DNA of 64,000 nt from Gimesia chilikensis. Lineage in GTDB: Bacteria > Planctomycetota > Planctomycetia > Planctomycetales > Planctomycetaceae. Made by a program: the position numbers and the translations under genes. Below the pieces are notes generated by a model. That model was not told the DNA's origin and did no database searches. It worked only from the letters and a program-made list of their open reading frames with translations. The first letter of the stretch is position 1. Each line of letters starts with the position of its first letter. The stretch covers positions 1,977,655-2,041,654 of the forward strand of contig NZ_CP036266.1 in NCBI RefSeq assembly GCF_007744075.1, in the 5' to 3' direction. Positions 5,323-61,418 of the stretch are shown here, in pieces.

Positions 5323-5916
5323 ATGATCATGGAATCTCTTCAGATTCTCATTGCACATAGTAATCAAAAAACTCTGTCAATTATCAATAACGCGGTTTTA
5401 ACTCTCGGTCATAAAGTGGTCGATACTGTTGAAACAGGCGAGGCGCTGGTAAAATGTAGTGAGTCTCACCGACCCGATCTGGTGATAAGCGGGGTCAAGA
5501 TGCCGGACCTTGATGGGATCCGGGCATTGACACTCATCGGCTCAGAAACTCCGGTACCCGGAATCATCGTAACTCCCAAAAGTGATCTGGAACTGGTGGA
5601 GACTGCAGCTCTGGATCATATCATGGCCTGGCTGGTGGAACCAATTCGGACTGTTGATCTGGCACCAGCCATTCTGCTGGTTCACCGCCGCGCTCAGGAA
5701 TTTGCGGAACTCCGTAAAGAAAATCATGATTTACGTACGGCTCTGGTAGATCGGAAAACTATCGAACAAGCTAAGGGAATTCTGATGAAATCTGCAGGTC
5801 TGGATGAAGGAGAAGCCTTCAAACGGTTGCAGAAAATGGCATCGCGCAAACGAATTCGCTTGATTGAAATGGCGCAGGCTGTCATCCACGCAGAAGATGC
5901 CATCGATCTTAAGTAA
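5323..5916 (+). CDS. ANTAR-domain regulator with a degenerate (pseudo-)receiver domain
   Basis: A 197-residue protein. Residues about 6-120 have the layout of a response-regulator receiver, and residues about 138-192 form a good ANTAR domain (TIEQAKGILM...GEAFKRLQKMA...RLIEMAQAVI), an RNA-binding helical bundle used for transcription antitermination. The receiver lacks its key residues: the acidic pocket reads AHS instead of DD, the phospho-acceptor position in DLVISGVKMP is Gly57, and the conserved lysine is Glu106. The protein is therefore unlikely to be phosphorylated in the usual way and may dimerise or sense another signal. ATG 5329 is an alternative start. No ANTAR double-hairpin target was identified nearby. 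Confidence 0.85.
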   Translation: MIMESLQILIAHSNQKTLSIINNAVLTLGHKVVDTVETGEALVKCSESHRPDLVISGVKMPDLDGIRALTLIGSETPVPGIIVTPKSDLELVETAALDHIMAWLVEPIRTVDLAPAILLVHRRAQEFAELRKENHDLRTALVDRKTIEQAKGILMKSAGLDEGEAFKRLQKMASRKRIRLIEMAQAVIHAEDAIDLK

Positions 5917-5932
5917 GTTGTTTTCCTGATCC

Positions 5933-6208
5933 TCATTTGCCTCGAAATGAGATCAGGCTGAGCACGGCTACAAAAAGCGAGGCCCCGATAATTGACCATA
6001 GAATCGGAAACGGTTGATCGCCAAATTGAACCGTCAGTATTTCCGGTAATCCCAGCCCCTTCGACATCCAACTCCCCAGTAAGGCGCCAATGAAACCGAG
6101 TGCGATCGATGTCAGGCACCCCCCGCGAGAGTAACCTGCCAGAGATTGTCCTATACCTCCACAAATGGCAGCGACAATCAGCAATATGAGCAGTTCAAAG
6201 ATTCCCAT
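5933..6208 (-). CDS. GlsB/YeaQ/YmgE family (transglycosylase-associated) membrane protein
   Basis: A 91-residue, almost entirely hydrophobic protein with three membrane segments and the glycine-rich family pattern GGIGQSLAGYSRGG...GFIGALLGSW. The family is widespread, small, general-stress induced and of unclear biochemistry; the name transglycosylase-associated is historical. It lies 53 bases downstream of the DUF2254 gene on the same strand, probably in one operon. It ends 17 bases from the convergent ANTAR gene. Confidence 0.88.
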   Translation of the reverse strand: MGIFELLILLIVAAICGGIGQSLAGYSRGGCLTSIALGFIGALLGSWMSKGLGLPEILTVQFGDQPFPILWSIIGASLFVAVLSLISFRGK

Positions 6209-6261
6209 AGTTTTGTTTCCTTTTAAGTGCTTAAGTCAAAGTGCGCTGGCATCTTCAAGTT

Positions 6262-7623
6262 TCATGACTGCTTGTCCTGATCCAGGATTTCCGATAACTG
6301 CCGATACTTTGAACGGAAAGTTTCAAGATCTTGTTTTACAATATGCTGGTCGACGTACGCCGTCTGGAGCGCTTCAGCTTCACCACGGATGGCATGAATA
6401 TCGTCAGGGCGACTGGCATGATTGGTGATTTCAGTCAGTGCTTTCAGTATGGTCAGAGAGACGGCAGTGCTACTGGCACCATATTCACGAATCTGTCCAA
6501 ATGACTGAATCAATACTTCGGGAAAATCATCTGCCTCTGTGATCAGAACCCTCGCGACTGAATCATCGTCGCGACGAATCCGCACCGGTACTGACCGTTC
6601 AACCAGACGTCCCAATGCCCCTCCGAGTCTGTCGACACAGCTCATCGCTGTAAAAGGATCGTTAATGCCTGGTGACAGGGCTCGCAGTGCAATCTCAACC
6701 AGTTCACGAGCGGCATATCCCACATCCTGACGCGGAGTTCGTCGAGGGCCGACAATAATGACGCGATTCACCGAATTGGTGTAAGATGTAGTCATGTCCT
6801 CCGTCTTTTCTGTATCCCGTGGCAACCAGATCCGGGCCAGCAGCTTTTCCCGAGTCACGAAGTCCCCCGGTTTGCATAGAAGCTCAACGACGCCTTCAGC
6901 TTCACATGCCAGGGAAACCAGGCTTTCGCCATCAATTCCCTCGATATAACCTTCCGCTTGAGATGCGACTGTAATGTTGTTATCGCTTAACTCTGCACGA
7001 AGGTCCTCAATACTGAGTTTAGCTTCTTCTTCATCGGGACGTTCACCGATCCGTTCCGGAAATAGTCGATCTACGGCGAGATCCAGGTCGCGTGCTACCG
7101 CAGTGACGATTGTGGGAGCCTGAATGGCTGTCGCAACATGGTGGATAAACAGGATTAACATCCCCATACAGATTAATCCCAGAATTAATCCAACGGCCGT
7201 ACCCAGCTGTGGAGTGAATACATCCGTACCATTTTTACCTTCGCGAACGGTCTGAAGCACAAGCATGCAGTACAGGCTGGTTCCCACATACTGACCGATA
7301 ACAAGGTCTGCAATGCTGTCGCTCATGACGTTACGCACAAGTCTTGAACCGAACTGTGAGGAAGCAATCGACAGGGTCAGAACCGTGATTGAAAAGACGA
7401 CGCCGGCCAGTGCAATGGTGGCACCTGCCACTGAGGAAAGAGTAGACCGAGCTGCTTCTGCTGTGGTAGAAAACCAACTCAGTTCTCTGTTAGAGCTGGC
7501 AATCATCTCATCCAGCTGACATGTCCCCATTGCAAGTGCAATTGCGAATAATGACATAATTGAAGGGACAAACCAGAAACTGCTGCGAAAGGAATCCCAT
7601 AAATTTGCCAGACGTGCTCTCAT
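6262..7623 (-). CDS. DUF2254 domain-containing membrane protein
   Basis: A 453-residue protein. The N-terminus carries hydrophobic segments near residues 18-38, 65-90, 107-125 and 140-165, with the family pattern SSVAGATIALAGVVFSI and ASSQFGSRLVRN. A large cytoplasmic C-terminal half includes ALSPGINDPFTAMSCVDRLG, also typical of DUF2254. Function is unknown. Upstream, TTGACG-17-TAAATG resembles a housekeeping promoter. It probably heads a two-gene operon with the GlsB/YeaQ gene. The full length agrees with the family. Confidence 0.88.
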   Translation of the reverse strand: MRARLANLWDSFRSSFWFVPSIMSLFAIALAMGTCQLDEMIASSNRELSWFSTTAEAARSTLSSVAGATIALAGVVFSITVLTLSIASSQFGSRLVRNVMSDSIADLVIGQYVGTSLYCMLVLQTVREGKNGTDVFTPQLGTAVGLILGLICMGMLILFIHHVATAIQAPTIVTAVARDLDLAVDRLFPERIGERPDEEEAKLSIEDLRAELSDNNITVASQAEGYIEGIDGESLVSLACEAEGVVELLCKPGDFVTREKLLARIWLPRDTEKTEDMTTSYTNSVNRVIIVGPRRTPRQDVGYAARELVEIALRALSPGINDPFTAMSCVDRLGGALGRLVERSVPVRIRRDDDSVARVLITEADDFPEVLIQSFGQIREYGASSTAVSLTILKALTEITNHASRPDDIHAIRGEAEALQTAYVDQHIVKQDLETFRSKYRQLSEILDQDKQS

Positions 7624-9507: not shown

Positions 9508-10221
9508 TCACCAGTAAGTGGGTCTTCCATAAAAGTCATAAAGCTGAACTTCATAAGCGCGGTTGACAGGTAGTCGCGGATCATAAACCGGCGCATCTCT
9601 TACCTGTTCTTCAGTCAGATCGACATGAGCTTTTTTATCTTCCCACGTAAAATGTGTGATCCAGTCGAATGCGATAATTACTTTTTTGCCAGGTAACCAG
9701 TTTTGAGTATCGATCACCAGATATCGCATGGTCCAGCTTTCGGTATCTACAATCAGATCATCTATATGGCCTAACGTTCCTTCCATACACTGAATGTGAT
9801 AACCAATAACCTCTTTTACGCTACGTAGGTGAGGGTTTCCGTCCAACTCCACAACCTGTGTTTGAGTTGAGTGATGATCCAGACCGGAGTCGGAATGCCC
9901 CCAATACATAGGCCAGTTAAAGTGAGACGAGAGTGCTACTTCCTTCTGCCGGGACACAGGAAGGTCGTCCTCCAACGCCGGAGAAGTTTCGATATTTTCC
10001 CTGGATAAGACTGTCGGTAATTCACGTGTATCAAGATTTGGCTGATCAATGGCTACTGGGGAAACCAGTACTTTTCGCCCCGGCAGCCAGTTCCCCGTGT
10101 CGATTACAAGATAACGGACGATATTAGACTCATCATCAAAAAGAAAGTCTTTAACGGTACCGCACTCGCCGTCTGTGGCCAGCACGTGATATCCATTAAG
10201 TTCATTGGTACTGCGAAACAT
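9508..10221 (-). CDS. Cytoplasmic protein with two PRC-barrel domains
   Basis: A 237-residue protein without a signal peptide. Two PRC-barrel repeats are visible: residues about 4-75 (LNGYHVLATDGECGTVKDFLFD...RYLVIDTGNWLPGRKVLV) and about 130-205 (VIGYHIQCMEGTLGHIDDLIVD...RYLVIDTQNWLPGKKVII). The near-identical YLVIDT-NWLPG signatures show internal duplication. Each half is followed by a Pro/Tyr-rich linker ending in MYWG or PTYW. ATG 10221 is preferred (AAAGGAG 8 nt upstream) over ATG 10320, which has a weak site. This PRC subtype is common in bacterial stress islands; molecular role unknown. Confidence 0.85.
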   Translation of the reverse strand: MFRSTNELNGYHVLATDGECGTVKDFLFDDESNIVRYLVIDTGNWLPGRKVLVSPVAIDQPNLDTRELPTVLSRENIETSPALEDDLPVSRQKEVALSSHFNWPMYWGHSDSGLDHHSTQTQVVELDGNPHLRSVKEVIGYHIQCMEGTLGHIDDLIVDTESWTMRYLVIDTQNWLPGKKVIIAFDWITHFTWEDKKAHVDLTEEQVRDAPVYDPRLPVNRAYEVQLYDFYGRPTYW

Positions 10222-10479
10222 TTGTGTCTCCTTTCCTGACTCTACCTGTAATCGGAAAGCAGATGGCGTGCCAAATCTGGTCAAATCATTGGGTGGCACT
10301 TGAGTTTGTTTAGATTCCATAAAGGATTCTCGCTGTTTTTTAGAGATATCAGGATTTAAAAATAATTCCTGCTGTGTTCCGTTTGCCTGCGCTAAACTAT
10401 TTAAATTCTGTTCTATCGACTGCTGGCAAACCGGACTGCTTGAAGAACAGCCAGATTTGAGATGGACCCGGTCGAGCGA

Positions 10480-10523
10480 TAAAAAAAGCCCTGCAGCGCA
10501 GTAATGTTATGCGCTGCAGGGCT
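10480..10523 (-). terminator. Strong intrinsic terminator (minus strand) with no coding gene upstream
   Basis: AGCCCTGCAGCGC pairs with GCGCTGCAGGGCT (13 bp, 11-nt loop), followed on the minus strand by seven T. No convincing minus-strand gene lies immediately upstream, so it may end a small RNA. Confidence 0.8.
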
Positions 10524-10567
10524 GTCATAGGCCTGCTTATGATGTGTCTTTTGGACAAATCTTCTCT
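10480..10567 (-). ncRNA. Candidate small RNA ending at a strong terminator
   Basis: On the minus strand a TTGACT-16 nt-TAGACT promoter (10601-10574) is followed, after about 85 transcribed bases, by the strong terminator at 10523-10480. No open reading frame of note lies between. The architecture is that of a trans-acting small RNA, but neither the family nor any target is recognised. Confidence 0.3.
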
Positions 10568-10950
10568 ATCCCCAGTCTAACAAGACTGCGTCGTGAGTCA
10601 ATCCACTAAAGTTTAGTATTAGACAGACCTCAATTTGGATTGTCTTGTTCAGGCTCACCTCACGCTTCAGGACGGGACTGAAAGGGACTTCGTACTACTC
10701 AAGTACGAGCTCAACTATTTGATTCGGACAAAAGAGTGCTATAATGGTTTTAAATTTCAGCTGAAACTGATTCCCTCTGAGTCTTATTGGCCTCGAAAAA
10801 AGGGAATATGGTTGCTGAAGTACGGGCCAGATAACACTTTATTAGTTATAAAAGCAGGGCTTGGGCCGACTGGAATCGTAAATACTGAATCTATCCGTAT
10901 TTTGTTTACATCGATCCCCTTTATTCTTGCTGACAATGGAATAACAAAAG
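10568..10950. other. Intergenic region upstream of the sigma-54 activator gene
   Basis: No gene supported. It contains the palindrome CAGTCT-AACA-AGACTG at 10573-10588, operator-like and overlapping the proposed small RNA -10 box. A 112-codon frame (10635-10973, TTG start, no ribosome binding site) overlaps the activator start and looks like chance. Confidence 0.35.
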
Positions 10951-12426
10951 ATGCCAGAAGCACTAGTGGTTGATGATGATCGTACAATCCGAGAGATGGT
11001 ACGAAGTTCTCTGAGTAAAATTAACGTTGATATCATCCAGGCAGGTACTGCTCAGGAAGCGCTTGAGGCAATTAAAACTGGCTCTCCGGAAGTGGTACTG
11101 CTCGATATCATGCTGCCGGTCGTATCCGGACTGGACGTGTTTCGAGAAATTCGTGAGTTGGATCGCAGGCTGCCAGTGCTCTTCATAACCTCTTCCAGTG
11201 AAAGCAATGTTGCGATTGAAGCAATGCAACTGGGAGCGTTTGACTATCTGGCTAAGCCATTGGATCTTCCCAAGCTGAACGATCTGGTTTTGAAAGCGAT
11301 CGAAAACAGGCGATTGATGAATATTCCTGTGGCCCTGCCGGTGGGAGGAAAGAAACGGAGTAGCGGAGATCAGTTTGTCGGTCGCAGTCCACAGATGCTT
11401 GAAGTCTTCAAATCCATCGGACGTGTCGCCTCGGAAAATGTTAATGTACTGATTCGTGGTGAAAGTGGTACCGGGAAAGAGCTCGTCGCCAGAGCTATCT
11501 ACCAGCATAGCCCTCGTTCTGAGGAATGCTTTATGGCGGTAAACTGCGCAGCCCTGACGGAAACTCTGCTGGAAAGCGAACTTTTTGGCTATGAAAAAGG
11601 AGCTTTTACAGGCGCTGATCGACAGCGAATCGGTAAATTTGAGCAATGCAATGGTGGTACAATCTTTCTGGATGAAGTGGGGGACATGTCGCAGCTCACA
11701 CAGGGGAAAGTACTGCGGCTGTTGCAGGAACAGAAGTTCGAACGTGTAGGTGGCAATAAAACGATTGAAACAGACGTACGTATCATTGCTGCGACCAATC
11801 GAAACCTGGAACAGATGGTAAAAGACGGCACGTTTCGAGAAGACCTGTTTTATCGTCTAAATGGAATGACTATTTCGCTACCTCCTCTCCGGAAACGAGG
11901 AAACGACATCGCTTTGCTGGTTGAGCACTATCTCAACGAAGCGTGTTACGAAATGGGGCGTACCGAGGTAGAAGGGATTTCCTCTGAAGCCCTGGATCAG
12001 TTGTTACAATACCGCTGGCCAGGGAATGTGCGTGAATTGCAGAGCGTAGTCCGTCAATCTCTCTTGAACAGCACCAGTCCGGTAATCGTTCCCTCTTCTC
12101 TTCCTGAAGACGTTTCCAGTCAATTTAAACCAACTCCCGAAGTCTTCCAATCAGACGATCCCCTGGATGAAGACCCAGCATTGCCGCTCTCAGATCTTCA
12201 ACTTTTTGTTGATCAGAGGCTGGCAGCACAAACCAAAGACTTGTACAGCGAGACTCTGGAAACGATGGAGCGTTATCTCTTAACCCGTGTTCTGAATGAA
12301 ACGGGGGGAAATCAGACCCGTGCTGCGGAGATCCTGGGGATCACGCGAGGCAAAATTCGTGATCGTATTGCGCAATTTGGAATTTCCCTCGAGAAGACAG
12401 TCAGCATTGATGAGAATGGCGGTTAA
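10951..12426 (+). CDS. NtrC-family sigma-54-dependent response regulator
   Basis: A 491-residue protein. The receiver domain covers residues 1-120 with acidic pocket DDD (8-10), phospho-acceptor Asp52 in LLDIMLP and Lys102. The AAA+ domain covers about 143-370 with Walker A GESGTGKE (170-177), an intact GAFTGA sigma-54 contact loop (217-222), a Walker B IFLDE and an R-finger region. A Fis-type HTH closes the protein (NQTRAAEILGITRGKIRDRI). Such proteins hydrolyse ATP to open sigma-54 promoters. Sigma-54-like promoters precede nearby units at 1118, 12867 and possibly 17309, making it the natural activator of this stress island (inference). The likely kinase partner is the hybrid kinase at 13669, but the pairing is unproven. 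Confidence 0.92.
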   Translation: MPEALVVDDDRTIREMVRSSLSKINVDIIQAGTAQEALEAIKTGSPEVVLLDIMLPVVSGLDVFREIRELDRRLPVLFITSSSESNVAIEAMQLGAFDYLAKPLDLPKLNDLVLKAIENRRLMNIPVALPVGGKKRSSGDQFVGRSPQMLEVFKSIGRVASENVNVLIRGESGTGKELVARAIYQHSPRSEECFMAVNCAALTETLLESELFGYEKGAFTGADRQRIGKFEQCNGGTIFLDEVGDMSQLTQGKVLRLLQEQKFERVGGNKTIETDVRIIAATNRNLEQMVKDGTFREDLFYRLNGMTISLPPLRKRGNDIALLVEHYLNEACYEMGRTEVEGISSEALDQLLQYRWPGNVRELQSVVRQSLLNSTSPVIVPSSLPEDVSSQFKPTPEVFQSDDPLDEDPALPLSDLQLFVDQRLAAQTKDLYSETLETMERYLLTRVLNETGGNQTRAAEILGITRGKIRDRIAQFGISLEKTVSIDENGG

Positions 12427-13668: not shown

Positions 13669-16600
13669 ATGGTTCCTTCCTCGCCGAATGAGAATATCCC
13701 CAATTCAGCACTCTGGGCTTCTGATGAACAATTGCAGAAGATTATCGATTCTGCTCTGGATGCTGTCATTACTATGGATATGGAGGGGCTGGTAGTAGAT
13801 TGGAATCGACGTGCGGAGGAGATCTTTGGCTGGTCTTACGATGAAGCAGTTGGGAATCCTCTGGTTGATCTGATCATTCCGGAGCAGTATCGTCTGCAAC
13901 ACCTCGACGGTTTGAGACTTTTTAAATCGACAGGCAAGGGGCGAGTCATCAACCAGAAGCTGGAGCTAACCGCTCTCAGGAGAAATGGTCACGAGTTTCC
14001 TGTGGAACTGATGGTTACCAAAGTCGACTGGAAAGAGCAGACCATCTTTAATGCTTTTGTTCGCGATGTTTCGGATCGCAAGGAAGCGGAACAGTTAATT
14101 GCACGGGAAAAACTTGAGGCTGCGCTTCTACAACAGGCCAGTTTTGCTTCATCGACCATTGATGCTCTGGAAGATGCCTTAAGAATCTGTGTCGCTAATC
14201 TCGGCGAAATTTCCGGCTGGCCTGTCGGGCATGCATTCCTCATGAATCAAAATGGAACTCGTCTGGTCTCTTCGCGGATCTGGCATTTTTCCAATCGAGA
14301 TAATTTTCGAGCATTGGATGAGGCTTCCCAGCAACTCAGTATTTCCCGTGGTGAGGATTTGCCCGGACAAGTCTGGCAACGCGGCGAACCGGTCTGGATT
14401 ACAGATATTGAGCATGATCAATCACTCCAGTCTCCCCGCGACTTTTCGTCACTGGGGGTACGCTCTGCATTTGGATTTCCCGTGAAACTCGATGGCGAGG
14501 TTATCGCAGTCGTAGAATTCTTTAATACGCGGCTGACAACCCCTGATCTGAATCTGCTGGCACTGGCACGTGGGGTGGGAAACCTGATCCGCCATGTTAT
14601 TGAACGTGTGCAATGGCAAGAAGAACGAACTCGACTGGCCGCGATTGTGGAGTCTTCAGGGGACGCCATCATCGGCAAGGCGCCCGATGGTACAATCACC
14701 TCCTGGAATAAAGGGGCCGAGGAAATCTATGGCTGGATGGCGGATGAAGTTATTGGCGAGACAGTGTCGGTCTTACTGCCTCCCGGGATGGCTCGTGAGG
14801 AATCAGAGATTTTGGAAGCAATGAAGACGGGACGTCGCCTCGATCAATTTCAGACACGACGGGTGAGAAAAGATGGTTCGATCATCGATGTTTCCATATC
14901 AGTTTCACCAATCCGTGGAATGGATAACCAGATTGTAGGAACTTCTACGATTGAGCGAGATATCACTGCACGCCGACGACGAGAAGAGGAGCTCAGCAAG
15001 GCACGCGATGAAGCAGAGCAGGCAACCCGCACACAAAGTGAGTTTCTGGCAAACGTCAGTCACGAGCTGAGGACACCCATGAACGCGATTCTGGGAATGC
15101 TTGAACTGACTCTTCAGGAAGACTTAACTCCGTTAAAACGGGACTACCTGCAGACAGCAAAAGACTCCGCCGACTCACTGTTGCTTCTGGTAAATGACAT
15201 TCTGGATTTCTCACGACTTGAGGCGGGTCGCTTTGAGCTGGAGCCCGTTGCCTTCAATTTGAGAGAACTTATTGATGAGGCAATCAAAACGCTCTCTCTC
15301 CGCGCCTGTGAAAAAGGGCTGGAGGTAATCTGTCGCATTGATCGGCGTGTGCCGGCGCGCGTCATTGGAGATCCGGTCAGGTTGAGACAGATTTTAACTA
15401 ACCTGGCAGGTAACGCGATAAAATTTACCGAACAGGGTGAAGTCGTTGTTGATGTCAAGTTTATCGAAGAATCAGTCTATTCTCCTGCAGATGGTCGATC
15501 TGCTATTGAACCGATCATCGGCAAACATACTGAAAAACAAGTACTTCTGGAATTCAGTGTGTCGGATACCGGCATCGGTATTGCACCGGAAGATCAAGAG
15601 CGGATCTTTGCTCCATTTGCTCAAGCGGATGCTTCTACAACCAGGCATTATTCAGGAACTGGCTTGGGACTGGCAATTTGTCACGAACTAATCAGCCTCA
15701 TGAAAGGCCAGATGAAACTGAAAAGTGATCTGGGAAAAGGTAGCCGGTTTTCATTTCAGGTCGTATTCCCGGTTGCTGATCCGGAAGAAATAGAATTCCC
15801 AGGAGAGAAGTCGCGCGTATCTGAGTTAAAAGATCTTCCCGTACTGGTGGTAGACGACAACCAGACGAATCGTCTTATTTTAGAGGAAATGCTGTCTAAC
15901 TGGTCAATGTCTCCCACCCCTGTAGAATCCGCGAAAGAAGCATTACAACATCTCAACTCAATCCAGGAAACTGAGACAGAATATCCTCTGGTAATCGTTG
16001 ATGCGCTGATGCCCGAAACCGATGGTTTTATGCTGCTTGAGAAAGCTCGGGAAGAGGGGTTGCTTGATACGGCCACTATTTTGATGCTTTCATCAGCAGA
16101 TCATCAGATATTCGGAGAGCGGTGTCAGGGGCTCGATATCTCGGCATTTCTGGAAAAGCCAATTTCCCAGTCTGATTTACTAGATGCCATTATGACCGCA
16201 TTAAAAGGACCACAACTCGAGAGAAATGGTGTTGTGCAGATTAGCGAGACCAAACAGTCACTGCGTATCCTGGTAGCGGAAGATACACCAGCTAACCAGA
16301 AAGTAATTACAGCAATTCTGAAGAAGAGGGGGCACCAGTGTGTCATCGCCAATAACGGGCGCGAGGCTGTGGAATGGGTGCGCAATGATACCTTCGACGT
16401 CGTATTAATGGATGTGCAGATGCCAACCATGGATGGTCTGCAGGCGACAAGAATGATTCGCGAATATGAAGAGGATGCCGATGAGCATATCCCCATTATC
16501 GCGATGACTGCTTATGCCATGCGGGGGGATCGTGATAAGTGTATCTCTGCGGGGATGGATAATTATATCTCGAAGCCGATTGATGCCCCCAAGCTCATCA

Positions 16601-17088
16601 GGCTGCTGGAGCGACTGGCATCAAAATACCCGCGCCAGTCTAATCTAAACTCGGCGATTACCAGAGAAGAATCAGGCCCTCCCGCTGAGCCATCAGGCAG
16701 GAAATCGGAACAAACTCTAGCTGATTCCGCAGGTATCGTTTCAACTCAGCCTGTAATGGATATGAAGGCTGCGCTGGACCGTGTGGGGAATGATCCCGAT
16801 CTACTCAACTCGATGGTCGGATATTTTTTTGAGGATGCACCTGGCTTGGTTCAAGTGATTTCTAAGCAGAATCAATCAGGAGATGCTGATGAAGTCGCGC
16901 GTGCAGCACATAGTCTCAAAGGGCTCTGCGCCAACTTCAACGCAGATGCGGCAGTAGGGGCTGCGAAGGTGATCGAAGAGATGGGACTGCAAGGAGATTT
17001 GCAGGGGGTTCCCGATGCAATTCCTGCCTTGGAATTGGAAATTGACCGTCTCACCAGCGAATTGACAAAATGGCGATCAGAACTCTGA
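13669..17088 (+). CDS. Cytosolic hybrid sensor histidine kinase (PAS-GAF-PAS-HisKA-HATPase-REC-REC-HPt)
   Basis: An 1139-residue protein with no membrane helices. Domains in order: PAS about 20-138, GAF about 160-312, PAS about 322-436, HisKA with His465 (SHELRTP), HATPase about 565-702 with DTGIGI and GTGLGLA, receiver 1 with Asp778, receiver 2 with Asp915, and HPt with His1081 (AAHSLKG). It can therefore run a full phosphorelay. The first PAS resembles the second PAS of the kinase at 55642 (shared PE-YRLQH and NGHEFPVEL/DGHEFPVEL elements). Its place between the sigma-54 activator and the stress genes suggests it feeds that regulator, but the output is not encoded in the protein itself. Confidence 0.93.
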   Translation: MVPSSPNENIPNSALWASDEQLQKIIDSALDAVITMDMEGLVVDWNRRAEEIFGWSYDEAVGNPLVDLIIPEQYRLQHLDGLRLFKSTGKGRVINQKLELTALRRNGHEFPVELMVTKVDWKEQTIFNAFVRDVSDRKEAEQLIAREKLEAALLQQASFASSTIDALEDALRICVANLGEISGWPVGHAFLMNQNGTRLVSSRIWHFSNRDNFRALDEASQQLSISRGEDLPGQVWQRGEPVWITDIEHDQSLQSPRDFSSLGVRSAFGFPVKLDGEVIAVVEFFNTRLTTPDLNLLALARGVGNLIRHVIERVQWQEERTRLAAIVESSGDAIIGKAPDGTITSWNKGAEEIYGWMADEVIGETVSVLLPPGMAREESEILEAMKTGRRLDQFQTRRVRKDGSIIDVSISVSPIRGMDNQIVGTSTIERDITARRRREEELSKARDEAEQATRTQSEFLANVSHELRTPMNAILGMLELTLQEDLTPLKRDYLQTAKDSADSLLLLVNDILDFSRLEAGRFELEPVAFNLRELIDEAIKTLSLRACEKGLEVICRIDRRVPARVIGDPVRLRQILTNLAGNAIKFTEQGEVVVDVKFIEESVYSPADGRSAIEPIIGKHTEKQVLLEFSVSDTGIGIAPEDQERIFAPFAQADASTTRHYSGTGLGLAICHELISLMKGQMKLKSDLGKGSRFSFQVVFPVADPEEIEFPGEKSRVSELKDLPVLVVDDNQTNRLILEEMLSNWSMSPTPVESAKEALQHLNSIQETETEYPLVIVDALMPETDGFMLLEKAREEGLLDTATILMLSSADHQIFGERCQGLDISAFLEKPISQSDLLDAIMTALKGPQLERNGVVQISETKQSLRILVAEDTPANQKVITAILKKRGHQCVIANNGREAVEWVRNDTFDVVLMDVQMPTMDGLQATRMIREYEEDADEHIPIIAMTAYAMRGDRDKCISAGMDNYISKPIDAPKLIRLLERLASKYPRQSNLNSAITREESGPPAEPSGRKSEQTLADSAGIVSTQPVMDMKAALDRVGNDPDLLNSMVGYFFEDAPGLVQVISKQNQSGDADEVARAAHSLKGLCANFNADAAVGAAKVIEEMGLQGDLQGVPDAIPALELEIDRLTSELTKWRSEL

Positions 17089-55241: not shown

Positions 55242-55641
55242 TCTCTAAAAGGAGATTCATATTACTACACTCCATTTAGATTAGCGCTTTAATCAGCAGA
55301 CAGGCGAACGGCTTATTTGCAAAACAGAAACCTGATGAATTCCTGTAAGTCTTGATTTCTAAGATGCTTACGTCCAGGGAGGATGTGATGCGATTGGTTA
55401 GTCGCTATTTCACCCGGGGAGAATTGTTGTGACAGAATCCATTGTAGATGAGCGGGGTAATATTCCGTCAGACAGCCTGTTTTCAAAACAAAGGTTGTTG
55501 CCTACAATATACTTAGGCCGATACAGTAAGCAATCAGCTTAGGCATTGCATCAGGCAAGAGCCTCTGTTTTCAGGTTGGGGCAGCGGTTAAAACTTTCTC
55601 AGCCTGGCAGAGCTGTATCGGGGGAGAGGAAGGGCAGTTTC
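55242..55641 (+). other. Upstream region of the hybrid kinase gene, with two possible very short ORFs
   Basis: About 400 bases. A 14-codon frame (55388-55432) and a 37-codon frame (55429-55542, GTG) both have purine-rich Shine-Dalgarno-like sequences (GGGAGG, GGGGAG), and the second starts inside the stop of the first. Neither resembles a known peptide. A TTTTCA-17-TACAAT promoter-like pair lies near 55480-55510. Confidence 0.3.
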
Positions 55642-58600
55642 ATGTACGCTTCCGAACAACAGATTCCCGTCACACCGCCAGACGATCAGCGTTCGTTCAC
55701 AGCTGAGCCACCTTCTTTCTGGCGATCATTGCTCTTAAAGAACACCCTGTTTGTGGCCATCGTAGTGGTGCTCACTGCCGGTATTCTGGGGCATCTTGCT
55801 TATATTTTTGCCCGCGATATTCTGCACGATAATATCCGCGTCCGGCTTCAACTGGTCGTCAGTGATCGGGCTGCGTTATTTGAAGGTTATGTACGACAGC
55901 AGTTGGATCGGGCTGCGTTGATTACCAGTCGGACTCACCTGAGGGAGCTGATACAAGACTTCGAACAGGGAACTCTCGATGAAGATGCTTTCCAGTCTGA
56001 ATCAAAGCGGATACTCGAAGACACTATTTCGGGGAGTACCTCCGAATTTCGAGATCTCTGGATTGTGAATCCGGAAGGGACTGTGATCACTGCGACGAGT
56101 GACAATTATCTCAATCAGACCTTTGCCGATGATCCTGGATTTCTGAAAGCGAAAGAACATCCCCAGCTGGATTATCCACAGAAAGTGGATGGTAAGTATG
56201 TGACTTACCTCATGGCTCCCATGAAGAGTGAAGCGGGGGATCTGATCGGCGTTTTAATGGTCTGGCTCGATGTTACTCCTCTGGAGCGGATTCTGACGAA
56301 TCGGACGGGGTTGCAGGACACGGGGGCACTTCTGGTCGCGACCAGAGAGGGAGATCAGGTACGATATTTATTGACTCCGGAAGACAGTACGCAACGATCA
56401 GTACAGCTCAAAGAAGTACCTGCAATGGAGAAAGCGCTGAATGGGGAAAGCGGATCCGAGGTTATGCATTACAGTGGCGATGAGGTGCTTGTTTCTTACC
56501 GTCCTGTAGATTATCAGCCTAATAGTGATGATGCTCCCTGGGGAATGGTAGCCAAAATAGATTTGACAGAAGCTTACGCTCCCGTAACACATTTACGTCA
56601 ACTGTTACTGGGACTGCAGTTTGGGCTCGTTTTTTTCGGAATGGTGGTCTCTTTTCTGGTTGCCCGGAGAGTGACCCGGCCGGTATTGGGACTGGCCGAT
56701 ACTGCATCGAAAATTGCTCGTGGAAATCTGGATGTCCGGGTGCCGATCACTTCGACAGATGAAGTGGGGATGCTGGGGGCTGCGTTTAATCATATGACTG
56801 CAGAGCTGGCAGCCTCACGGGATCAACTGGAGGAACGGATCGAACAGCGAACTGCTGAGTTGAACGCGTCACAAAAGAAATTGCGTCGCCAGACTCAAAT
56901 CCTGCAGTCAATTCTGGACAGTATGGGGGACGGTGTGATCGTTGCGGATCAGGATGGGAATTCCGTCTTCTGGAACCCGGCTGCAGAGCAGATTGTTGGC
57001 ATCGGACCGCAGAATGTAGATCCTTCCAAGTGGTCACAGATTTATGGGTGTTACCTTGCAGACGGAGTTTCGATGTGTCCTTCCGAGGATCTGCCTCTGG
57101 CGCGGGCCATGCGGGGAGAGTCACTCGATGATTCGATTCTCTTTCTTAAGAATCCCGATATTCCTGACGGAACCTGGATCAGTGTGACTGCACGTCCTTT
57201 GAAAAATGATCGTGGTGATCTGCGTGGTGGCGTGATCGTGATGCACGATATTACGGAAGCGAAAGCCACACAGGAAGAACTGGAATCACGCGATAAGAAA
57301 AACCGGGCCATACTGGCGACGACGCACGAAGCGTTCGTCGGTATCGATGAGAACAGTCGCATTTGTGACTGGAATGAACAGGCGGAAGCGACTTTTGGAT
57401 GGACTCAACAGGAGGTGATTGGACAGTCGCTGGTGGAGACCATCATTCCAGAACGCTATCGATTGCAACATATGCAGGGGATCGAAAAATTTCTTGCATC
57501 AGGTGAAGGCCCTGTTCTTAACAAGCGTCTGGAGCTCTCGGCTCTGCACCAGGATGGCCATGAATTTCCTGTGGAACTGACGATCACTCCCGTGCGGCAG
57601 GGGGACAATTTTCTGTTTGCGGCCTTTGTGCATGATATCACGGAAGTCAAGCGGGCCGAGGAAGAACTCAAAGGAGCTAAAGAAGCTGCCGAGGCTGCCA
57701 GCCAGGCAAAAAGTGCTTTTCTGGCAACGATGAGTCACGAAATCCGAACTCCCATGAATGCCGTAATTGGCATGACCGAATTACTGCTCGATACCGATCT
57801 GAACCCCACCCAGCGGGAATACATGACCATGGTGCAGGAATCGGGGGAATCTCTACTGGCAGTCATCAATGATATTCTGGATTTCTCCAAAATTGAAGCA
57901 GGCCGATTCGACCTGGAGCAGGCCGCATTCCACCTGAGGGAAAATCTGGGAGATACCATGAAATCGCTGGCTGTTCGCGCGCATCACAAACGCCTGGAAC
58001 TGGCATTTCATCTGGCGCCGGAAGTTCCTGATACCATCGTTGGTGACCGTTACCGCTTACGACAGATCATTGTCAATCTCGTCGGAAATGCCATCAAATT
58101 TACGGATGAGGGAGAAGTAGTCGTAGATGTAAATGTCGAATCTCAATCAGAGAGAGACGTTCTGTTGCACTTCGTCGTGCGTGATACGGGGATCGGAATT
58201 CCCAAAAGCAAACAGAAACAAATCTTTCAGGCCTTCGAGCAGGTTGATGAATCGATGGCCCGTCGGTTCAGCGGTACTGGACTCGGCCTGGCGATTGCTT
58301 CCCGCCTGATCAATTTAATGGGGGGAAGAATCTGGGTCATCAGTGAAGTCGATCAGGGGAGTGCATTTCATTTTACGGCTCATTTTGAACTGACGCAGGA
58401 AGAAGTCCCCGCCAGTGAGCCATTGGTCAAAGCCGACCTGGATGGCCTGCGCGTGCTGGTTGTTGATGATAACCTCACCAACTGTCAGATTCTGGAAGAA
58501 ATGCTCTCTAACTGGAAGATGCAACCCCAGACCGTCACGCGTGGGAAAGATGCACTGGAAGCGATGCATGCCCGTGTGAGGGGGGGTGAACCTTTCGATC

Positions 58601-59760
58601 TTGTACTGGTGGACGCGAATATGCCAACGATGGATGGGTTCTCGCTGGCGAAAGCGATCAAACAGGATAAGGAACTGGGAAGTGCAGTCATTATGATGAT
58701 TACTTCCAGTGACCGAAGAGGGGAGATCTCCCGCTGCAAGAAACTCGGAATTGCAGCGCACCTGATTAAGCCTCTCAAGCAGTCGGAACTGTTTAACTCG
58801 ATTGCAGAGACATTGGGAATTAACGGGGTAGATCATCATTCGACGCGATTGAAAACGGCTGAACTGGGTAAGCGTATTCCGCCTTTAAAAATACTGCTGG
58901 CAGAAGACAGTATCGTGAATCAGAAACTGGCGCTGGCCCTGCTGCAACCGCATGGCCACGAAATTACTGTCGTGACCAACGGGAAAGAGGCGGTCGAACA
59001 GAGAAAAACAGCCCATTTTGATCTCATTCTAATGGATGTCCAGATGCCTGAGATGGACGGTCTGGAAGCGACACGCGAAATTCGAGACTACGAACAGACA
59101 AGAGAGGAACATATACCAATCATTGCGATGACTGCACATGCGATGAAGGGGGACCGGGAACGCTGCCTTGAGGCCGGTATGGACGGCTACGTTTCTAAAC
59201 CGGTGCGTGTGCGGGAACTGTACCAGATGATTGAAGAAACACTGCAAATGAATGCCCAACTCGCAACTGTAAAAAATGAGTCCACACCTGAAGTGTCAGA
59301 ACAGCAGGCTGATTCGATTCAGATGGAACACGAGACAACCCAGGGGGAAGAATCGAGAGAGGAGTTAATCATGAACCCGTCTGAAGAACAGGATTCCCAT
59401 GACGATGTATTGAACTGGGAGCAGGCAATGGAGAAAGCAGAAATACCTGCTGAGGCCTTGAGCGAACTGGGACAACTGTTTCTGCAGGAAGCCCCTAAAC
59501 TACTGAACGAGATCCGGGATGCCATACAACAGGGGGATGCTACGTCACTAAGACGAGCCGCTCATACACTTAAAAGTTCAGCGGCCGTATTTGAAGCACA
59601 CCATGCAGCCGATGCCGCTTTAAAGCTGGAGTTACTTGGAAAAGATGAAAAGCTGATGGAAGCACGCGAAGCTCTACCTGCCCTGGAACAGGAAGTCGAC
59701 CGATTACTGCCAGCTGTTTCTGCTCACATTGATTCTACCGCTCTGGAAGGAAATAAATAA
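55642..59760 (+). CDS. Membrane hybrid sensor kinase (Cache-HAMP-PAS-PAS-HisKA-HATPase-REC-REC-HPt)
   Basis: A 1372-residue protein from ATG 55642 (GAAGGG upstream); the longer frame to 55546 is not supported. Helix at about 33-56, a periplasmic Cache-like sensor at about 60-318, helix at about 322-342, HAMP to about 392, and PAS domains about 420-540 and 553-672. HisKA has His700 (SHEIRTPMN), and HATPase spans about 805-917 with DTGIGIP and GTGLGLA. Receivers carry Asp992 and Asp1133, and HPt carries His1309 (AAHTLKSSA). The last codon overlaps the next gene (TAATG), a receiver-glutamate dehydrogenase fusion that I infer to be its output. Confidence 0.94.
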   Translation: MYASEQQIPVTPPDDQRSFTAEPPSFWRSLLLKNTLFVAIVVVLTAGILGHLAYIFARDILHDNIRVRLQLVVSDRAALFEGYVRQQLDRAALITSRTHLRELIQDFEQGTLDEDAFQSESKRILEDTISGSTSEFRDLWIVNPEGTVITATSDNYLNQTFADDPGFLKAKEHPQLDYPQKVDGKYVTYLMAPMKSEAGDLIGVLMVWLDVTPLERILTNRTGLQDTGALLVATREGDQVRYLLTPEDSTQRSVQLKEVPAMEKALNGESGSEVMHYSGDEVLVSYRPVDYQPNSDDAPWGMVAKIDLTEAYAPVTHLRQLLLGLQFGLVFFGMVVSFLVARRVTRPVLGLADTASKIARGNLDVRVPITSTDEVGMLGAAFNHMTAELAASRDQLEERIEQRTAELNASQKKLRRQTQILQSILDSMGDGVIVADQDGNSVFWNPAAEQIVGIGPQNVDPSKWSQIYGCYLADGVSMCPSEDLPLARAMRGESLDDSILFLKNPDIPDGTWISVTARPLKNDRGDLRGGVIVMHDITEAKATQEELESRDKKNRAILATTHEAFVGIDENSRICDWNEQAEATFGWTQQEVIGQSLVETIIPERYRLQHMQGIEKFLASGEGPVLNKRLELSALHQDGHEFPVELTITPVRQGDNFLFAAFVHDITEVKRAEEELKGAKEAAEAASQAKSAFLATMSHEIRTPMNAVIGMTELLLDTDLNPTQREYMTMVQESGESLLAVINDILDFSKIEAGRFDLEQAAFHLRENLGDTMKSLAVRAHHKRLELAFHLAPEVPDTIVGDRYRLRQIIVNLVGNAIKFTDEGEVVVDVNVESQSERDVLLHFVVRDTGIGIPKSKQKQIFQAFEQVDESMARRFSGTGLGLAIASRLINLMGGRIWVISEVDQGSAFHFTAHFELTQEEVPASEPLVKADLDGLRVLVVDDNLTNCQILEEMLSNWKMQPQTVTRGKDALEAMHARVRGGEPFDLVLVDANMPTMDGFSLAKAIKQDKELGSAVIMMITSSDRRGEISRCKKLGIAAHLIKPLKQSELFNSIAETLGINGVDHHSTRLKTAELGKRIPPLKILLAEDSIVNQKLALALLQPHGHEITVVTNGKEAVEQRKTAHFDLILMDVQMPEMDGLEATREIRDYEQTREEHIPIIAMTAHAMKGDRERCLEAGMDGYVSKPVRVRELYQMIEETLQMNAQLATVKNESTPEVSEQQADSIQMEHETTQGEESREELIMNPSEEQDSHDDVLNWEQAMEKAEIPAEALSELGQLFLQEAPKLLNEIRDAIQQGDATSLRRAAHTLKSSAAVFEAHHAADAALKLELLGKDEKLMEAREALPALEQEVDRLLPAVSAHIDSTALEGNK

Positions 59761-61418
59761 TGAATGTCGCATCAGGAAGTGGCGTCAAAGTATTGTTCAT
59801 TGAAGATAACCCGATTCATGTGGGACTGGTGAAAACCCTGCTGGGGGAATCCCGGGCACCCATATTTCAGTTACAGCATGCAGGATCTCTCCAGGATGGT
59901 TTGAAACTGCTCGAAGCAGTTCCGGTCGACATTATTCTGCTGGACTTGACCCTGCCCGACAGCGAGGACCTGGATACGTTCATCCGGGTCCGTTCGTTTG
60001 CCCCCGCGATCCCGATCGTAATTGTTACGAGCCTGGATGATGTGAAACTGGCTGCGAAAGCCGTTGAGGCTGGAGCCCAGGATTATCTGGTTAAGACACA
60101 GCTGAGCCGAACTTCGCTAACTCGTTCTTTGCGTTATGCGATCGAGCGGACACGTGTGCGGGATGCCGAATGGGATTCGCCGATGTTCAGGCTGGCACAG
60201 CGACAGTTCCTCAAGGCGGCCCAGTATATGGGGCTGGACGATAATATTCGTCAGCGGTTGTTGTTTCCGCAACGAACGCTGGTCGTGACTCTTCCATTTC
60301 GTCGAGATCATTATACCGAAGTCGAAACCGTATTCGGCTATCGAGTTCAGCACATTCTGACTATGGGACCTACCAAGGGGGGGATTCGATATCATCAGGA
60401 TGTCAGCCTCGGAGAAGTTTCAGCATTGGCGATGTGGATGAGCTGGAAGTGTGCCCTGGTGCACCTGCCCTTTGGTGGAGCCAAAGGGGGCGTACGCATC
60501 GATCCCACGGGGCTAACCGGTCATGAACTGCAACGTCTCACCAGACGATTTGCAACCGAAATCAGCCCGATTATTGGACCTGAGAAAGACATTCCGGCTC
60601 CTGATATGGGAACCAACGAACGGGTGATGGCCTGGATTATGGATACTTACAGCCAACAGGTAGGTTACTCTGTACCTGCAGTCGTGACAGGTAAGCCGGT
60701 CGTCCTCGGGGGGGCTCGGGGACGTAATGAAGCGACAGGGAGAGGCGTCGTCTATCTGATTGAAGAAGCGGCCCGGCATCTGAAGATGAATCTCAGTGAG
60801 TCTACGGCTGTGATTCAGGGGTTTGGAAATGTGGGCAGTCATGCTGCCCTGTTTTTAAGTGATCTGGGCGTGAAAATCATCGGTGTCAGCGATGCAACCA
60901 CGGGCATCTATAACCGTAATGGGCTTTCGATGTCCTCACTGCTTGAGTATGTGGGGCAGAACCGTTTTCTGGAAGGTTATTCTGAAGGGGATGAAATCAC
61001 GAACCAGGAACTGCTGGAACTGGAGTGTGATATTCTGGTACCTGCTGCATTGCAAAATCAGATCACAGCAGAAAATGCAGATCGCATTAAATGCCGTCTA
61101 CTGGCGGAAGGTGCTAACGGGCCAACTACACTGGAAGCTGATGAGGTACTCAATGAAAAAGGGGTTTTCATACTCCCTGATATTCTGGCAAACGCGGGTG
61201 GGGTGACTGTTTCTTACTTCGAATGGGTGCAGGATACGCAGAACTATATGTGGAGCCTGGATGAAGTCAATCAACGATTGAAACGCATTCTGCAAGATGC
61301 GTTTCAGCGTACTTTGAATCGTGCGGAGAAGAACAACGTCGACATGCGGACGGCGGCACTCATGGAAGGGATTGAACGCGTCGCGCAGGCTAAGCTGGCG
61401 CGCGGTCTGTTCCCATAA
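59760..61418 (+). CDS. Receiver domain fused to glutamate (Glu/Leu/Phe/Val) dehydrogenase
   Basis: A 552-residue protein. Residues 9-128 are a full receiver: acidic EDN (15-17), acceptor Asp62 in LLDLTLP and lysine in DYLVKT. From about residue 140 there is an essentially complete GDH: Lys206 (PTKGGIR), Lys230, catalytic Lys242 in PFGGAKGGV, Asp282 in PAPDMGT, Rossmann loop GFGNVG (354-359) and SDATTGIYN. GDH interconverts glutamate with 2-oxoglutarate plus ammonium. Direct phosphorylation control of GDH would be unusual. ATG overlaps the kinase stop (TAATG). No frameshift or internal stop separates the domains, so this is a true fusion. Confidence 0.95.
   Translation: MNVASGSGVKVLFIEDNPIHVGLVKTLLGESRAPIFQLQHAGSLQDGLKLLEAVPVDIILLDLTLPDSEDLDTFIRVRSFAPAIPIVIVTSLDDVKLAAKAVEAGAQDYLVKTQLSRTSLTRSLRYAIERTRVRDAEWDSPMFRLAQRQFLKAAQYMGLDDNIRQRLLFPQRTLVVTLPFRRDHYTEVETVFGYRVQHILTMGPTKGGIRYHQDVSLGEVSALAMWMSWKCALVHLPFGGAKGGVRIDPTGLTGHELQRLTRRFATEISPIIGPEKDIPAPDMGTNERVMAWIMDTYSQQVGYSVPAVVTGKPVVLGGARGRNEATGRGVVYLIEEAARHLKMNLSESTAVIQGFGNVGSHAALFLSDLGVKIIGVSDATTGIYNRNGLSMSSLLEYVGQNRFLEGYSEGDEITNQELLELECDILVPAALQNQITAENADRIKCRLLAEGANGPTTLEADEVLNEKGVFILPDILANAGGVTVSYFEWVQDTQNYMWSLDEVNQRLKRILQDAFQRTLNRAEKNNVDMRTAALMEGIERVAQAKLARGLFP

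Follow-up and report, generated by a model that had tools for sequence, protein, structure and literature searches.

Response regulators with an enzymatic output include CheB and the GGDEF/EAL, HD-GYP and PP2C proteins. Glutamate dehydrogenase (GDH), which sits between nitrogen and carbon metabolism, is usually described as regulated through its expression, small-molecule effectors or partner proteins. Here we analyse a 64,000-nucleotide stretch of the Gimesia chilikensis genome (contig NZ_CP036266.1, positions 1,977,655 to 2,041,654; hereafter the window), in which a receiver (REC) domain and a GDH are encoded as one protein, REC-GDH, directly downstream of a membrane hybrid histidine kinase that ends in an HPt domain. 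We consider it probable that the two proteins form a complete phosphorelay with an enzyme as its output instead of a transcription factor, gating GDH post-translationally. REC-GDH resembles the enzymatic-output response regulators in that an N-terminal receiver would control a catalytic domain without DNA binding, and departs from them in that the output is a central nitrogen-carbon enzyme, which would mostly be fed by HPt.

Proteins with REC domains 'attached to standard metabolic enzymes' form a recognised class (Galperin et al. 2018, PMC5847659). Unlike the archaeal enzyme fusions listed in a passage of that review, which gives their spread as narrow, REC-GDH occurs in at least six phyla. 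Moreover, a table of the P2CS database from 2009 has a row for glutamate dehydrogenase (EC 1.4.1.3), marked 'Probable' in two-component proteins (PMC2716373); the enzyme activity is the same, and section 5 of that paper, in which it is a single row, names neither a protein nor a partner kinase and gives no conservation or mechanism. A preliminary description of the locus, made from the DNA alone, knew of no described phosphorylation-gated GDH of this kind. This holds for the module, in that no description of a phosphorylation-gated REC-GDH was found in the open-access literature searched, into which few subscription papers fall, but not for the activity, given the P2CS row. The REC-on-enzyme class and the listing of GDH were therefore already known, whilst the REC-GDH phosphorelay module is seemingly undescribed.

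Control of glutamate catabolism, GDH included, through phosphorylation is described for PknG and GarA/OdhI of actinobacteria (PMC5448819, PMC9769921). As presented there, that system shares with our proposal an external amino-acid signal, phosphorylation and direct control of glutamate-catabolic enzymes. It differs in that a Ser/Thr kinase acts on a separate enzyme-binding protein, whereas the proposed target in REC-GDH is an Asp of a receiver within the enzyme. GarA and OdhI have the FHA fold and are phosphorylated on Thr, and a Pfam search of the kinase and REC-GDH, confined to these two proteins, found no FHA domain in either.

The REC-GDH protein and its upstream kinase

REC-GDH (59760-61418, an open reading frame (ORF) of 552 aa on the forward strand, as are all features of this section) has full-length relatives in many phyla. 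Its receiver domain (residues 11-114, 59790-60101; PF00072 Response_reg, 59.3 bits, cut-off 30.2) has the complete site of a response regulator, namely Glu15, Asp16, Asp62, Thr90 and Lys112, of which Asp62 (codon 59943-59945) is the predicted phosphoacceptor. Receiver helix 5 and the junction, recognised from the alignment and a structure model, span residues 117-140 (60108-60179) and include Glu137-Trp138. The GDH dimerisation/substrate domain (ELFV_dehydrog_N, PF02812, residues 170-298, 60267-60653) holds Lys206, Lys230, Lys242 and Asp282, Lys and Asp residues that we take to be catalytic, and the NAD(P)-binding domain (ELFV_dehydrog, PF00208, residues 317-549, 60708-61406) has GFGNVG at residue 354. 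Every key residue named in the preliminary description (Asp62, Lys206, Lys242, Asp282 and the GFGNVG motif) is thus in place. With both domains, the Lys/Asp residues and a GxGxxG motif the protein belongs to the ELFV-family GDHs, and the solved structures nearest to its GDH part are named GDHs; none of the NCBIfam GDH models reaches its cut-off for REC-GDH. The one-contig genome of 8.29 Mb encodes three PF02812 GDHs, among which only REC-GDH matches over a receiver.

An AlphaFold2 monomer model, built on a 57-row alignment of fusions, 5 REC-less and 9 other stand-alone GDHs, comprises a receiver and a complete GDH, both well modelled (pLDDT 89.4, pTM 0.76). It replaced a first model from an alignment of 43 fusions only, which was poor in the GDH substrate domain (pLDDT 68.6). 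Strands and helices alternate over residues 9-136 in a CheY-like (beta/alpha)5 receiver fold, with pLDDT of 84-96 for residues 11-90 and 82-83 for residues 91-120. The junction consists of a helix (117-136), a low-confidence hinge and a GDH helix (141-157). The best PDB match of the model was the GDH of Thermotoga maritima (1b26, TM-score 0.92 on target), which has the same fold and 54% identity over the GDH part, and which lacks a receiver, the alignment starting at fusion residue 141. The T. maritima enzyme and its kin are small hexameric GDHs.

The kinase ORF (55642-59760, 1372 aa) starts with ATG, an alternative in-frame start being TTG at 55546. Its Pfam domains run in the order dCache_1-HAMP-PAS-PAS-HisKA-HATPase_c-REC-REC-Hpt, each family above the Pfam cut-off. 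The Cache-like sensor suggested in the preliminary description is a dCache_1 domain (PF02743, residues 61-303, 55822-56550; 65.3 bits, cut-off 45), flanked by hydrophobic stretches at about residues 28-59 and 320-343. Behind it lie HAMP (PF00672, residues 339-389, 56656-56808), two PAS domains (PF08448 and PF13426, residues 425-541 and 564-668, 56914-57645), and HisKA and HATPase_c (PF00512 and PF02518, residues 689-754 and 801-914, together 57706-58383). Response_reg matches two stretches of the kinase. The first receiver has its phosphoacceptor at Asp991 (codon 58612-58614), the second (PF00072, residues 1084-1198, 58891-59235) at Asp1132, and the terminal HPt domain (PF01627, residues 1278-1355, 59473-59706; 54.4 bits, cut-off 24.6) has His1308. 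These sites and the HisKA phosphoacceptor His699 were assigned by position; His699 is kept in 8/8 kinases of the genus that cover it (a ninth is cut by a contig end), and Asp991, Asp1132 and His1308 in 9/9. Judged by sequence the protein is a hybrid kinase, with HisKA, HATPase_c, receivers and HPt all retaining their phospho-residues, and it accounts for one of the seven HPt matches in the whole genome.

ArcB, BarA and TorS are unorthodox or hybrid HPt kinases with which this protein shares the HisKA-HATPase-REC-HPt phosphorelay. The window's kinase and nine sampled relatives linked to REC-GDH differ from that kind in having two receivers, and the proposed final receiver is here an enzyme, as opposed to a transcription factor. 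The kinase stop and the REC-GDH ATG share one base (TAATG), as had been read from the sequence at the outset. A Shine-Dalgarno-like GGAAGGA (59745-59751) lies within the last kinase codons, 8 nt before the ATG, and AAGGAA is conserved at this junction in 9/9 genomes of the genus.

Distribution of the fusion and its linkage to HPt kinases

Full-length REC-GDH was found in 9 of 17 genomes of the genus, and a kinase ortholog (E below 1e-200) in exactly those 9; both genes are missing from the remaining 8, two of which are only 74-76% complete. In each of the nine the kinase lies directly upstream (one is cut by a contig end), the two genes overlapping by one or four bases or lying three bases apart. 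Since the fusion and the adjacency recur in all 8 other gene-bearing genomes of the genus, they are due neither to chance nor to misassembly, and the assembly error that the preliminary description had kept in view can be discarded. Searching 392 Planctomycetota genomes with the first 207 residues (E 1e-30 or better) gave matches in 16, of which 11 reach the end of the query and are fusions (one cut by a contig end), and 5 stop at residues 134-159, a REC-SpoIIE protein among them. At 5396-7102 of locus L062, from another planctomycete, a receiver about 49% identical to that of REC-GDH is joined to a SpoIIE-family phosphatase.

We also scanned 84,980 species, one genome each, for two peptide patterns taken from where the GDH part begins. 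The scan returned 147 relatives, 80 of which were kept and underlie all counts of 74 fusions given here: 74 are REC-GDH fusions and 6 lack the receiver. The fusions fall into Gammaproteobacteria (20), Planctomycetota (16), Alphaproteobacteria (12), Gemmatimonadota (8), Myxococcota (8), Latescibacterota (6) and Zixibacteria (1), with 3 more that have no assigned phylum, and thus span at least six phyla. Halomonas, Zobellella, Ruegeria and Sphingobium are among the genera represented. Five of the 74 (L075, L076, L113, L138 and L139) look like contigs already present in the genus or phylum samples, L113 being the same as L059. Plasmids carry the fusion too: among the best 20 of 186 matching plasmid records, nine have it at 66-68% identity, all from Sinorhizobium or Ensifer and including, among the records listed, the rhizobial symbiont Sinorhizobium fredii NGR234. 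Three of these nine are annotated, each as a Glu/Leu/Phe/Val dehydrogenase dimerisation-domain protein.

In an alignment of 75 fusions (the 74 and that of the window), the receiver residues Asp62 and Lys112 are invariant (75/75), and Glu15 (73/75), Asp16 (72/75) and Thr/Ser90 (72/75) nearly so. Lys206, Lys230, Lys242 and Asp282 of the GDH are each present in 75/75. The stretch connecting receiver and GDH (residues 125-170) has one length without any indel in 75/75, whilst receiver residues 28-125 show a one-residue length difference in 11 of the 75. At the junction Glu137 is found in 75/75 and Trp138 in 74/75. The Glu-Trp motif is also present in REC-less relatives and is therefore a motif of the GDH clade, not of the receiver alone.

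Neighbouring kinases were called with domain profiles built from the kinases of these loci, a neighbour being adjacent or parted only by a small HPt gene. A kinase adjoins REC-GDH in 56/74 fusions: 54 were called by the profiles, and two (L102 and L110), missed because of a spurious ORF within an over-long start, were added from separate inspection. Of the remainder, 7 are flanked on one side by less than 1 kb, and 11 have longer flanks and no kinase. Outside the loci assigned to Planctomycetota, a kinase is present at 53/54 informative loci (3 of the 53 without a phylum). In three of the 56 kinases (L081, L086 and L108) a contig end removes the part where an HPt might show; among the 53 that are uncut, 52 have an HPt, which lies within the kinase in 44 cases and is encoded by a gene of its own (121-125 aa) in 8. 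A same-strand kinase or HPt gene lies at most 60 nt away or overlaps in 46/56, although the overlaps of 196-394 nt at four of these (L098, L130, L131 and L152) are taken for over-long start calls. As a control, ORF-called genes at least 3 places away at the same loci include kinases in 3/466 cases and HPt kinases in 0/466, and REC-less sister GDHs stand beside a kinase in 0/6. The kinase may be upstream or downstream, depending on the lineage, and its HPt fused or separate, with the linkage kept. The sensors vary likewise while the pairing stays: alongside the dCache of the window, the nine sampled kinases have CHASE (four), a TorS-like match below the cut-off, DUF4154, PAS only (two) or none (one). 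By adjacency and co-occurrence the two genes are a cognate pair, in 9/9 cases in the genus and in 56/74 fusions of named genomes.

A proposed relay to GDH and competing explanations

We strongly favour the view that the HPt would control GDH directly through the receiver, because the pairing with kinase and HPt, the receiver active site and the length of the linker are conserved across phyla. The dCache domain would sense an extracytoplasmic ligand, and this signal would set the autophosphorylation of His699. Phosphate would then travel by the kinase receivers (Asp991/Asp1132) to His1308 of the HPt and on to Asp62 of REC-GDH. A change in the helix 4/5 face of the receiver could be passed along helix 5 and the fixed-length Glu137-Trp138 junction to the first GDH helix, with altered GDH activity or altered hexamer assembly as the outcome. 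What we infer is the transfer of phosphate at each step, the ligand, and both the existence and the direction of an effect on GDH. Phosphotransfer to Asp62 is very likely on these grounds and an effect on GDH activity or assembly fairly likely, and such control would need no transcription step. The preliminary description had put forward the same control of GDH by the HPt; the conserved pairing, receiver site and linker length strongly favour it, whilst the pairing with an HPt-ended kinase is not universal.

Our guess that phosphorylation favours oxidative deamination of glutamate is tentative and somewhat doubtful, its one source being an arginine-operon neighbourhood in another genus of Planctomycetota (g21). 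In 4/4 genomes of g21 (L032, L056, L057 and L058) REC-GDH is divergent from AstA, at about 2.8 kb from the AstA start, and in one of them (G356) AstA, AstB, AstD, a class-III aminotransferase and an M20 hydrolase form an arginine succinyltransferase operon. As the arginine succinyltransferase pathway gives glutamate, a catabolic role of GDH is hinted at. However, the search detected AstA neither in the genome of the window nor in the 8 further genomes of the genus that it listed, and so the link was given little weight as a clue to the window's locus. An AstE-like gene 42 nt upstream of REC-GDH in Halomonas organivorans (L117) was dropped as a further arginine link, since of four other neighbours scanned there three belong to non-arginine families and one has no match.

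The chances seem to us evenly balanced that the fusions make up a widespread undescribed class of phosphorelay in at least six phyla. Swappable sensors would act through HPt on the GDH receiver and so set the glutamate/2-oxoglutarate node within seconds without transcription, and loss of the kinase would lead to decay of the receiver and finally to its being dropped. If this is true, a fast and direct line would run from an outside signal to glutamate flux, by phosphorelay on the enzyme itself. The system is also a testable one, with one kinase, one enzyme that has a spectrophotometric assay, and genera with named strains, and its members that have a kinase, that lack one and that lack the receiver make up a natural series.

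Several observations weigh against the phosphorelay reading, and they are taken here together with the explanations that they would suit. Many of the loci are close kin, so that the counts are not independent events. Two of the paired kinases (L101 and L106) are on the opposite strand. The sole uncut paired kinase without an HPt (L113) is a planctomycete HisKA-HATPase-REC protein upstream of REC-GDH, with a V4R-like match below the cut-off, which suggests direct phosphotransfer or an HPt encoded elsewhere. Lastly, the structure model that had been proposed early on delivered a well-folded REC and GDH, but it is a monomer in which the receiver's orientation is not fixed, and with a low-confidence junction a contact between REC and the GDH hinge is not shown.

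This low confidence would permit a flexible tether, and the alternative that survives best, although improbable, is that the receiver anchors GDH at the membrane kinase or sets its location or partner with kinetics unchanged, for example to channel glutamate or ammonia at a site of amino-acid uptake. The conserved pairing with kinases would fit such docking. However, a pure tether has no need of one exact linker length in 75/75 fusions, and at least one paired kinase, that at L117, starts with PAS and has no extracytoplasmic sensor among its Pfam domains.

The expectation that REC-GDH always stands beside an HPt-ended kinase was not borne out. The 11 well-flanked fusions of the 74 without an adjacent kinase comprise 10 of Planctomycetota and 1 of Myxococcota; within Planctomycetota a kinase is present at only 3/13 informative loci, two of the three being Gimesia records. 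None of the four g21 fusions has a kinase as immediate neighbour, although L057 has kinase-like ORFs about 2 kb from REC-GDH. Moreover, 8/11 of the kinase-less fusions, 7 of the 10 from Planctomycetota among them, keep an intact receiver, on which distant kinases may act or which may be used in some other way. These loci, and the arginine succinyltransferase operon that faces REC-GDH in g21 instead, would agree with a receiver that regulates the fusion through many or distant kinases, the adjacent kinase being a linked neighbour with mainly other targets. We consider this quite unlikely, since the kinase is retained at 53/54 informative loci outside those assigned to Planctomycetota, and the pair stays together although gene order varies by lineage.

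Slightly less likely again is a reverse flow, in which GDH is the sensor: 2-oxoglutarate, glutamate or NAD(P)H would set the receiver, which would drain or return phosphate and so tune a kinase with another output. HPt hybrid kinases can serve several partners, and a second receiver protein lies directly upstream of REC-GDH in 3/74 loci. These are REC-SpoIIE-STAS proteins at L106 (6190-7986) and L108 (790-2523), 11 and 51 nt upstream, and a 250-aa REC protein at L103; the kinase at these three loci may have a second output, so that the pair may not be strictly private. L112 has two single receivers a little further off. The other 71/74 loci have no such protein as immediate neighbour, the recurrent neighbours found besides kinase and HPt are lineage-specific and metabolic, transport-related or unknown, and a mere sensor would not need Lys206, Lys230, Lys242 and Asp282, which are nevertheless kept in 75/75.

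That the receiver is a passenger, left from an ancestral fusion and without a present regulatory role, would suit the loss of key receiver residues in L139, L144 and L146 and the existence of REC-less relatives, but is hardly credible with the receiver site intact in all 57 kinase-linked fusions and most others. The five-residue site is intact in 57/57 fusions with a kinase (the window included) versus 8/11 without (Fisher p 0.003, kinship not corrected for). The three decayed receivers are all from Planctomycetota and in one clade. In the GDH tree they and L105, none of which has a kinase, stand beside the REC-less relatives. This quick tree nests the REC-less GDHs inside the fusions. The pattern suggests that loss of the kinase may have come first, then decay of the receiver and then its loss, but the alternative of all fusions in one clade was not rejected (p-AU 0.439).

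Neighbouring genes and further observations

Besides kinase and HPt, the recurrent neighbours of REC-GDH are lineage-specific: a PolyA-polymerase-head protein, a TrkA channel, YjeF, His biosynthesis, M20 peptidase, Sel1 and sulfatases, with some that have no Pfam match. A common metabolic partner gene was therefore rejected. The REC-SpoIIE-STAS proteins of L106 and L108 recall sigma-factor partner switching and may represent an additional output of the phosphorelay there. Two REC-less relatives stand in other surroundings. At L148 (3646-5430) a guanylate/adenylate cyclase gene follows 14 nt downstream on the same strand. At L033 (about 10218-11513, G022) a REC-less GDH of the same clade, from an assembly of 250 contigs, is interrupted by in-frame stops close to its start, and is either a broken gene or a sequencing error.

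The window holds a second HPt hybrid kinase (13669-17088, 1139 aa) with the order GAF/PAS-HisKA-HATPase-REC-REC-HPt, and about 1.2 kb upstream of it an NtrC-type sigma-54 response regulator (10951-12426). Finally, at three loci of the genus (L028, L029 and L030) another hybrid kinase of about 860 aa, PAS/GAF-HisKA-HATPase-REC by Pfam on L029, is convergent with REC-GDH just downstream of it; this spot is occupied in the window by an 808-aa protein.

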